This document shows positions 61,716-64,000 of a DNA stretch of 64,000 nucleotides, in pieces. Source of the stretch: Antarctobacter heliothermus (lineage in GTDB: Bacteria; Pseudomonadota; Alphaproteobacteria; Rhodobacterales; Rhodobacteraceae). The position numbers were made by a program, and so were the translations under genes. The notes under the pieces were generated by a model that ran no database searches, was not told the DNA's origin, and saw only the letters and a list, made by a program, of their open reading frames with translations. Location of the stretch: NCBI RefSeq assembly GCF_900188425.1, contig NZ_FZON01000022.1:1-64000 (forward strand), in the 5' to 3' direction. Position 1 is the stretch's first letter, and each line of letters starts with the position of its first letter.

Positions 61716-62423
61716 ATGGCACAGCACGACGATTCTGGACGGGCCGCAGATCAGGTGGTGCACAGCATCGCGGAACGTATCCGCCTCGGCGATTTGCCCG
61801 ACGGCCAGCCGCTTCCCCCTGAGCGCGACCTGATGGAGGAATACGGCATCTCGCGCACTGTCGTGCGCGAGGCGGTGCGCACCCTGTCATCGCGCGGTCT
61901 GATCGAGGCGCTGCCGCGCCATCGGCCGGTGGTCCGCAAACCCGGATTTGATGCCGCCATTGACGCGGTAGGCAGCATCGTCACACATCTGCTGTCCGAA
62001 CCGGGCGGGGTCAGGAACCTCTTTGACACCCGCATCATGGTTGAGGCGGCACTGGCCCGACAGGCGGCGCAATTGGCCACCCGCGACGACATTGCCGCGC
62101 TGAAAGAGGCGCTGGAGGCGAACGCCGCCGCAGTTGAGGACAGCGAAGAATTCTACCGAACCGACAACGCCTTTCACGGTGTGTTGTACCAAATTCCACA
62201 GAACCCGGTTCTGCCGGCGATCCACCGCGCCTATACAACGTGGTTGGCCCCGCAATGGTCACAGATGCCCCGTCTGCCAGAGCGCAACCGCACCAACCTC
62301 GGGGCGCACAAGGCGATTTACGACGCCATCCTGATGCGCGACCCCGATGCGGCCGAGGCCCGCCTGCGCGACCACCTGTCCAAGGCCTGGGCGCAGGTGC
62401 GGGAAACCTTCGGCGACGTCTAG
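61716..62423 (+). CDS. GntR-family regulator, FCD domain (probable master of the TTTGGTNNNACCAAA regulon)
   Basis: 235 residues. Winged helix (AERIRLGDLPDGQPLPPERDL, YGISRTVVREAVRTLSSRGLIE) and FCD domain (LFDTRIMVEAALARQAA, RTDNAFHGVLYQ, HKAIYDAILMRDPDAAEARLRDHL with the metal-site His/Asp pattern). Divergent from the dehydratase operon, with operator-like sites between. FCD regulators usually respond to sugar acids or short organic acids. It ends in TAG and is followed by an inverted repeat. Confidence 0.92.
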   Translation: MAQHDDSGRAADQVVHSIAERIRLGDLPDGQPLPPERDLMEEYGISRTVVREAVRTLSSRGLIEALPRHRPVVRKPGFDAAIDAVGSIVTHLLSEPGGVRNLFDTRIMVEAALARQAAQLATRDDIAALKEALEANAAAVEDSEEFYRTDNAFHGVLYQIPQNPVLPAIHRAYTTWLAPQWSQMPRLPERNRTNLGAHKAIYDAILMRDPDAAEARLRDHLSKAWAQVRETFGDV

Positions 62424-62538: not shown

Positions 62539-63165
62539 TCAGCGGACCTTGAAGACCTTTTCGTCTTCGACCTGAAAGCGGAACGCGGTGACACAGCCCG
62601 AGCTGGTGGACCGATCCTTGAAGGAGCCGTTGATGTCGTTTGCATCGGTGGACAGGCACCAGCCGTTGCCGTTGTCGCGTCCCCAGTGGCCGATCAGGTT
62701 GTCCTTGAACCGATCGTTGGCAAAGTCGCGGCGGTAGACCCGGATTTCATCCATCCAGAAGGCATCGTCGCCGCCGATCGTGATGTCGATGTGCTTGAGG
62801 TCAAAGGGCTCGAACGTGTCCGAGAAGTAGACCGCATCGGCAAAGACACCGCAGCGGGGATAGTCGAAACTGCCAAGCGCCGAGCTGAGCGGGTTGATGT
62901 TGGGGTTGATCTTCATGGTTTCGGCTTCGATGTCGGTGACCGACAGGGTGGCGGTGCCGGCGGGGTCGCCGTCGACGCTGACGAACTTGACCTGGACATT
63001 GCTCTTGGTGCCGGTGTGATCGAGGCTGGAGGTATGGCAATCGATCTGGGCAAAGTAGAGCGTCGAGGATCCGTCGGGTCTTTGCAGATCGGCCTGAACC
63101 ATGGTGCTGCTCAGGATCGTTGCTGCGGCGAGAGTGGCGGAGATGGCTTTGGTGAAACGGGTCAT
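62539..63165 (-). CDS. Secreted hypothetical protein
   Basis: 208 residues. Signal peptide (AISATLAAATILSSTMVQA). The mature part is beta-rich (YFAQIDCHTSSLDHTGTKSN, DDAFWMDEIRVYRRDFANDRF, NGWCLSTDANDINGSFKDRS) with four Cys, like a small lectin- or PLAT-type sandwich; the family is not identified. AAAGGA fixes the start at 63165. An 18-bp palindrome lies 78 bp upstream and an identical one precedes the divergent gene at 63844. Confidence 0.75.
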   Translation of the reverse strand: MTRFTKAISATLAAATILSSTMVQADLQRPDGSSTLYFAQIDCHTSSLDHTGTKSNVQVKFVSVDGDPAGTATLSVTDIEAETMKINPNINPLSSALGSFDYPRCGVFADAVYFSDTFEPFDLKHIDITIGGDDAFWMDEIRVYRRDFANDRFKDNLIGHWGRDNGNGWCLSTDANDINGSFKDRSTSSGCVTAFRFQVEDEKVFKVR

Positions 63166-63242
63166 TGGTCTGGTCCTTTGGGTTGAGTGTTCTGTGCTCT
63201 CTCGAGCGGTGACCCCAACATGCCCCGCCCCACCGACCCGCG

Positions 63243-63260
63243 CTGTGAACGCGTTCACAG
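63243..63260. promoter_or_regulatory. 18-bp palindrome, copy 1
   Basis: CTGTGAACGCGTTCACAG, perfect palindrome, 77 bp clear of the minus-strand gene start at 63165. The TGTGAACGCGTTCACA core looks like a LacI-family operator. Confidence 0.7.
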
Positions 63261-63742
63261 GGGGTGCAAAAAAGGGCCGCAGCCCTCCGCACGACAAGCG
63301 GCAGGGACAGATCCAGCCCTGCCCGCACCCGTTGTCAGCACCTTTGTCGCGCAGGCAGGGTGACACGTCCAAAGGGAGCCAAAGCGACGGCAGAGACTTT
63401 TCCGGCGCTATCTGAGGTCTTCCGCGCTAGGGGCGAAAATCATGCCCCTGACGTGGCAAGGGCTGCTGCCCTCCCTCTGTTGCTCTGCGGCGCACAGGAT
63501 CGTCGTGCCAAAGTGTACCGAGACAGAAGGGGCGGGTTGCGGTGTGGGCCATGTTGTTGGGACAGATCCCGACAGCACCGCCTCTCACGATGGGCAAAGA
63601 TCACGCTGCCCGGACGCGCCATATACGCAGCGGATTTCCGCACGCGGGGGCCGCTCAACCTGTCACGCGGTTCAGCCTCGGGCCTCAAGGGTCCAGGTGT
63701 TTGCGCCTGAAAACCCGCGAGGCGCGCAAAAACCGTATGAAC

Positions 63743-63760
63743 CTGTGAACGCGTTCACAG
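63743..63760. promoter_or_regulatory. 18-bp palindrome, copy 2
   Basis: Identical CTGTGAACGCGTTCACAG exactly 500 bp from copy 1, 83 bp clear of the plus-strand gene start at 63844. Confidence 0.7.
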
Positions 63761-63843
63761 CGCGTCTGCGACCGCGCCGTCATAACCGGGTCATCAACAC
63801 TGCAACACCGCACTGATCAAACCGAACCAAAAGGACCCCAGTC

Positions 63844-64000
63844 ATGAAAACGCAAATCGCTTCCATCGCCCTCGCCCTGACCGCCGCGCTGACCGCCTCC
63901 AACGCCTCGGCCTTGTCCATCTCGCTGGACCCCTACTACTCCGAATTCGCGCTCACTAGCCACCACGCCGACAGCAGCTGCCATCTCTGGGGCAAGGCCA
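63844..64000 (+). CDS. Secreted hypothetical protein, 5' part only
   Basis: 52 codons to the window edge. AAAAGGA ribosome site, then a signal peptide (IASIALALTAALTASNASA) and a mature start LSISLDPYYSEFALTSHHAD with a first Cys at SSCHLWGKA. Not enough for a family call. Its leader layout mirrors that of the divergent gene at 63165. Confidence 0.7.
   Translation, partial: MKTQIASIALALTAALTASNASALSISLDPYYSEFALTSHHADSSCHLWGKA

Follow-up and report, generated by a model that had tools for sequence, protein, structure and literature searches.

The CgrA protein of Rhodospirillum centenum, a Crp homologue, footprints on exactly TGTGA-N6-TCACA, the consensus that is stated both for E. coli CRP and for CgrA, and cgrA belongs to a cyclase-linked operon with one such box in its divergent promoter region (PMC4681086). 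CgrA, which depends on cGMP, acts as a master regulator of cyst development; it has many direct targets and it activates its own operon. In Sinorhizobium meliloti the Clr / CyaD1 / SMc02177-SMc02178 system brings together a CHASE2 cyclase, a Crp-like regulator and a FecR-domain protein encoded nearby (PMC5498481, PMC10127613, PMC13001267). A key target of this system is an exported protein encoded beside the regulator gene, and Clr itself is a broad genome regulator that binds the box HGTYHC-N4-GRWACA (PMC5498481). A FecR-domain envelope protein is also found beside a CHASE2 sensor in the FecR-CHASE2 histidine kinase operon of Burkholderia (BiofilmReg), where the output is a two-component system (PMC5192318).

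The locus that we describe here, in Antarctobacter heliothermus, shares features with each of these systems and is identical to none of them. It was reached from a window of 64,000 nucleotides whose numbering is that of the contig (C113), which ends at 69164; several of the features in Table 1 lie beyond the end of the window. Like the CgrA regulon, the cluster has a Crp homologue, the same box and a cyclase-linked operon; unlike it, the cluster has three exact boxes, none of them directly before the operon, and its cyclase is of the CHASE2 type with a FecR partner. Like the Clr system it encodes a CHASE2 cyclase, a Crp-like regulator, a FecR-domain protein and an exported protein beside the regulator gene, but its regulator has REAINK in the recognition helix where Clr has RPKVNR, and its box is not that of Clr. 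In contrast to the Burkholderia operon, the output here would be a cyclic nucleotide and a Crp protein. The parts and their logic are known from CgrA and Clr; what is new is a putative private regulon in which the only perfect boxes are those of the regulator's own cluster. In the literature collection that was searched, no paper described such a combination. The textbook picture of CRP is of a global regulator that acts at scores of sites.

Table 1. Boxes, genes and putative promoter elements of the cluster, in the numbering shared by the window and contig C113.
Feature	Position	Strand	Remarks
CRP-type box 1, CTGTGAACGCGTTCACAG	63243..63260	-	77 bp upstream of gene A
CRP-type box 2, identical to box 1	63743..63760	+	83 bp upstream of gene B
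Box 3, palindrome CTGTGAACCCGTTCACAG	C113:68110-68127, past window end	+	86 bp before gene C
Spacer between boxes 1 and 2, 482 bp	63261..63742		no coding signal, no Rfam match
Gene A, exported protein of 208 aa, signal-peptide-like start	62539..63165	-	ATG at 63165; no Pfam family; paralogue of gene C
Gene B, exported protein of 211 aa, VHL-beta and bacterial SH3 domains	63844..64000, on to C113:64479	+	ATG at 63844
FecR-domain protein gene (exported)	C113:64722-65348, beyond window	+	
CHASE2-domain class III cyclase gene	C113:65345-67210, beyond window	+	
Crp-family regulator gene	C113:67207-67908, beyond window	+	
Gene C, exported paralogue of gene A	C113:68214-68777, beyond window	+	
Putative -10 element CATGTT, gene A promoter	63217..63222	-	20 nt after box 1; consensus match only
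Putative -10 element CATAAC, gene B promoter	63781..63786	+	20 nt after box 2; consensus match only

Three CRP-type palindromes in one cluster

Two identical 18-bp palindromes (CTGTGAACGCGTTCACAG) are spaced 500 bp from start to start, each upstream of one of two divergent genes for exported proteins. This arrangement had been described in a sequence-only reading of the same DNA, and we reproduced it together with the distances from each palindrome to its start codon and the lack of genes in the intervening 482 bases, which are 64% GC and contain open frames without third-position GC bias. A hidden gene or a structured RNA in this spacer was rejected on codon-bias, Rfam and Pfam checks: there was no codon-position bias, no Rfam match and no meaningful Pfam match. 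The core of the palindrome is TGTGA-N6-TCACA, with both pentamers perfect and a 6-bp spacing, and by consensus the palindromes are CRP-type sites, that is, putative operators. A third, with one centre base changed relative to boxes 1 and 2, lies 4.4 kb beyond box 2, and each of the three precedes an exported-protein gene by 77-86 bp. Counted with its flank, the repeat is a 23-bp inverted pair in which CGCG stands on the side of the gene, giving every box an orientation toward the gene that it precedes. In shuffled sequence there were just 0.06 palindrome matches per window, even when 3 mismatches were allowed.

Genome-wide counts were made by pattern searches. Without mismatch, TGTGA-N6-TCACA was found in three places in the 5.17-Mb genome, all of them in the cluster, where they span 4.9 kb and flank the crp operon; the chance of such clustering is ~3e-6. 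Because ~2 exact cores are expected by composition in a genome of this size, their number is unremarkable, and it is the clustering and the context that carry the case. For the full 16-mer in two copies the expectation is 0.0007. The sole further match at 3 mismatches is on a different contig, within a GTPase-like gene. The genome-wide search that the sequence-only reading had called for thus shows a palindrome that is not abundant outside promoters, all three copies being upstream of genes, and the alternative of an abundant repeat was rejected on the finding of three exact cores only.

Exported-protein genes, their putative promoters and the looping proposal

Genes A and C are paralogous (E 1e-14, 24% identity) and their products have signal-peptide-like N-termini. 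Neither matched a Pfam or NCBIfam family, and no homologues were found at E 1e-5 in 297 other genomes of the family, nor any plasmid homologues of gene C. The structural model of the gene C product is weak (pLDDT 60) and its best matches are PLAT-domain proteins (lipoxygenase, lipase) at TM 0.3-0.4, from which a PLAT-like beta-sandwich fold may be taken as a lead only. Gene B was not detected as a paralogue of A or C, yet it has the same box.

The three promoters resemble one another downstream of the boxes. A -10-like hexamer is found 20 nt after boxes 1 and 2 (Table 1) and, as TAAAAC, at the same distance after box 3; TCA follows each hexamer, placing an A at +1 if the hexamer is the -10 element (by our count 63210 for gene A and 63793 for gene B). 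Fourteen of the 50 positions 3' of the boxes agree in all three promoters as against 3.8 in shuffles, 0 of 20000 of which reached 14. Upstream of the boxes the DNA is unrelated among A, B and C, the similarity ending at the upstream box edge. We hypothesise from this layout that the centre of the box is at -41.5 at these three promoters, which is the class II CRP-dependent position. That spacing is not general at the boxes in relatives, and a sigma-70 consensus scan found no standard promoter here. The paralogy of A and C and the likeness of the B and C promoters could also mean that a promoter cassette, consisting of the box and ~45 bp, was merely carried along when the gene was duplicated and no longer has a regulatory role. 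We regard this as very improbable, given that the likeness stops at the upstream box edge and fades within 60 bp downstream, that the paralogues have drifted to so low an identity, that B, which was not detected as a paralogue, has the same box, and that both arms of the boxes are still perfect.

The promoters also bear on the earlier proposal that a single regulator, LacI-like, or DNA looping controls the two divergent genes. Two copies of a perfect palindrome, of suitable length and flanking divergent promoters, would suit a LacI-family repressor that binds both and loops the intervening 482 bp. However, a separate promoter-like sequence stands at a fixed distance from each of the boxes, gene C has one box only, and 500 bp is 47.6 helical turns, so the round spacing has no phasing meaning; looping is not needed to account for the arrangement. 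LacI-family operators usually have CG at their very centre; the centre of these boxes is GC within CGCG, and in box 3 the centre is changed. There are nine LacI-family genes in the genome and none is on contig C113. The palindrome itself is that of the CRP consensus and has a crp gene with a matching helix linked to it, and in relatives the surroundings of crp genes are enriched in such boxes. A LacI-family looping repressor is for these reasons scarcely credible. What stands of the earlier proposal is the single regulator, which very probably serves both divergent genes and the third gene too; its assignment to a LacI-like family does not stand.

The linked Crp regulator, the cyclase and the possible ligand

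The operon that encodes the Crp-family regulator sits between boxes 2 and 3. Its FecR-cyclase and cyclase-crp gene pairs each overlap by four bases, which suggests a single translationally coupled operon, FecR-cyclase-crp. No exact box directly precedes it, box 2 standing before gene B upstream of the operon, so feedback is not obvious. Between gene B and the operon (C113:64480-64721; L005:2981-3222) there is a strong GC-rich hairpin (CTTGGCCCCGA...TCGGGGCCAAG) with no T run; lying 3' of gene B, it may reduce the transcription that runs on from the boxed B promoter into the operon genes.

The regulator has a cNMP_binding domain (PF00027, 3e-20) and an HTH_Crp_2 domain (PF13545, 5e-13). It carries the phosphate-cassette signature FGEIALLDGAERSA, in which G86, E87, R96 and S97 align with G85, E86, R95 and S96 of Clr, and of the genome's seven best HTH_Crp_2 regulators it is, by inspection, the only one with this cNMP signature. 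By sequence its closest solved structures are 3d0s (Rv3676 of M. tuberculosis) and 3r6s, which we take to be GlxR of C. glutamicum; the closest from an alphaproteobacterium is Clr (7pza). Rv3676 and GlxR both read TGTGA-N6-TCACA, although they differ from the cluster Crp in being global regulators without linkage to a cyclase and a few targets. The recognition helix, TREAINK, aligns with SRETVNK of Rv3676 (a RE-xx-NK pattern) and differs from SRPKVNR of Clr, a contrast that fits the TGTGA half-site at the cluster boxes. An RExxxR/K recognition helix reads TGTGA.

Two other regulators deserve consideration. A GntR/FCD regulator gene (61716-62423) adjoins gene A, and another Crp/Fnr protein of the genome (C60) has TAREVISR, an RExxxR-like sequence, in its recognition helix and might read a similar half-site. 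Known GntR/FadR-type sites, which are of the TGGT-N-ACCA type, do not fit the box, and the boxes of the relatives inspected had no apparent GntR homologue next to them; the C60 protein is encoded away from the cluster and is without the cNMP signature. Binding of the boxes by either of these is improbable. We consider it highly probable that the boxes are operators of the Crp-family regulator encoded in the same cluster, and that together they form a local second-messenger regulon for exported proteins.

The cyclase consists of a CHASE2 domain (PF05226, 2e-40) and a cyclase domain (PF00211, 4e-13). Its metal aspartates D434 and D478 and its Asn/Arg pair N555 and R559 are invariant in three aligned FecR-linked cyclases. 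The purine-selecting position is Gln474, with Thr as the second residue of the adenine-selecting pair, and Gln is found there in all three of the aligned cyclases (VEQ/IEQ before GDG; homologues L017 and L018). The usual residue at this position is Lys in adenylate cyclases and Glu in guanylate cyclases, so the substrate is not predictable from the Gln. Within the Crp explanation, then, the same boxes and the same regulator might be served by cGMP from the CHASE2 cyclase and not by cAMP. The Gln that replaces the typical adenylate-cyclase Lys in all three FecR-linked enzymes points towards cGMP; on the other side, Gln is compatible with adenylate cyclase activity, as in Rv0386, and the C-helix of the cluster Crp, with Asn-Thr in place of the Thr-Thr of Clr, is no guide to the ligand. 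Clr accepts both nucleotides and CgrA reads the same box with cGMP (PMC4681086). On balance a cGMP ligand seems to us possible but rather doubtful.

Taken together with the Crp-family regulator as the protein that reads the boxes, these features suggest a circuit in which the CHASE2 membrane cyclase, co-operonic with the exported FecR-domain protein and with Crp, would sense a cell-envelope signal and make a cyclic nucleotide, cAMP or cGMP. The nucleotide-loaded Crp dimer would bind the three perfect TGTGA-N6-TCACA boxes and, from -41.5, would probably activate rather than repress the three exported-protein genes, the divergent pair A and B, and C.

Related clusters and a possible private regulon

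The cluster regulator is rare: it was found in 6 of the 298 family genomes at E 1e-30, the source genome included, and in 0 of the 5 genomes of the same genus at 1e-25, which marks the cluster as accessory. In the DNA around related crp genes of 34 other genomes we found 16 exact boxes against 0.62 expected (P ~1e-17), the expected number being derived from the whole-genome count in each of the 34, which include four of one genus and two (G320 and G397) that look like the same genome. Neither of those two has a box near crp, and many related crp genes in the class are without an exact box nearby. Three genomes, those of Jannaschia seohaensis (G319), G066 and G608, have all their exact boxes near crp. 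Boxes precede crp itself at L035, L089, L090, L092, L093 and L100. At the first of these (G186:C3) there are exact boxes at 1284, 4041 and 7481, of which two precede genes for large BapA-like Ig-repeat adhesins and the other precedes crp; an identical 16-mer elsewhere in that genome (G186:C42) is inside a coding frame and was set aside as a chance or coding match. The two exact boxes of G608 (L098, G608:C18; 5726 and 6444) are identical, the only ones in the genome, and precede two small exported-protein genes near the related crp, with similar DNA downstream. In Jannaschia seohaensis and in Desertibaculum subflavum, the neighbours of crp include FecR and CHASE2-cyclase genes.

These observations are consistent with a wider picture that we offer tentatively, as plausible although short of probable: an accessory, self-contained alphaproteobacterial cassette in which a FecR and CHASE2 envelope sensor is paired with its own cyclic-nucleotide receptor and with a few exported proteins that have the genome's only perfect boxes. 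Such a cassette could run insulated from any global cAMP system and could pass as a whole from one species to another, while exported proteins or adhesins peculiar to each lineage repeatedly came under control of the box. If confirmed, the cluster would be a compact case in which to ask how a diffusible second messenger can serve one private gene set. It would also provide a route to asking what CHASE2 domains sense, since reporters could follow its outputs at three named promoters.
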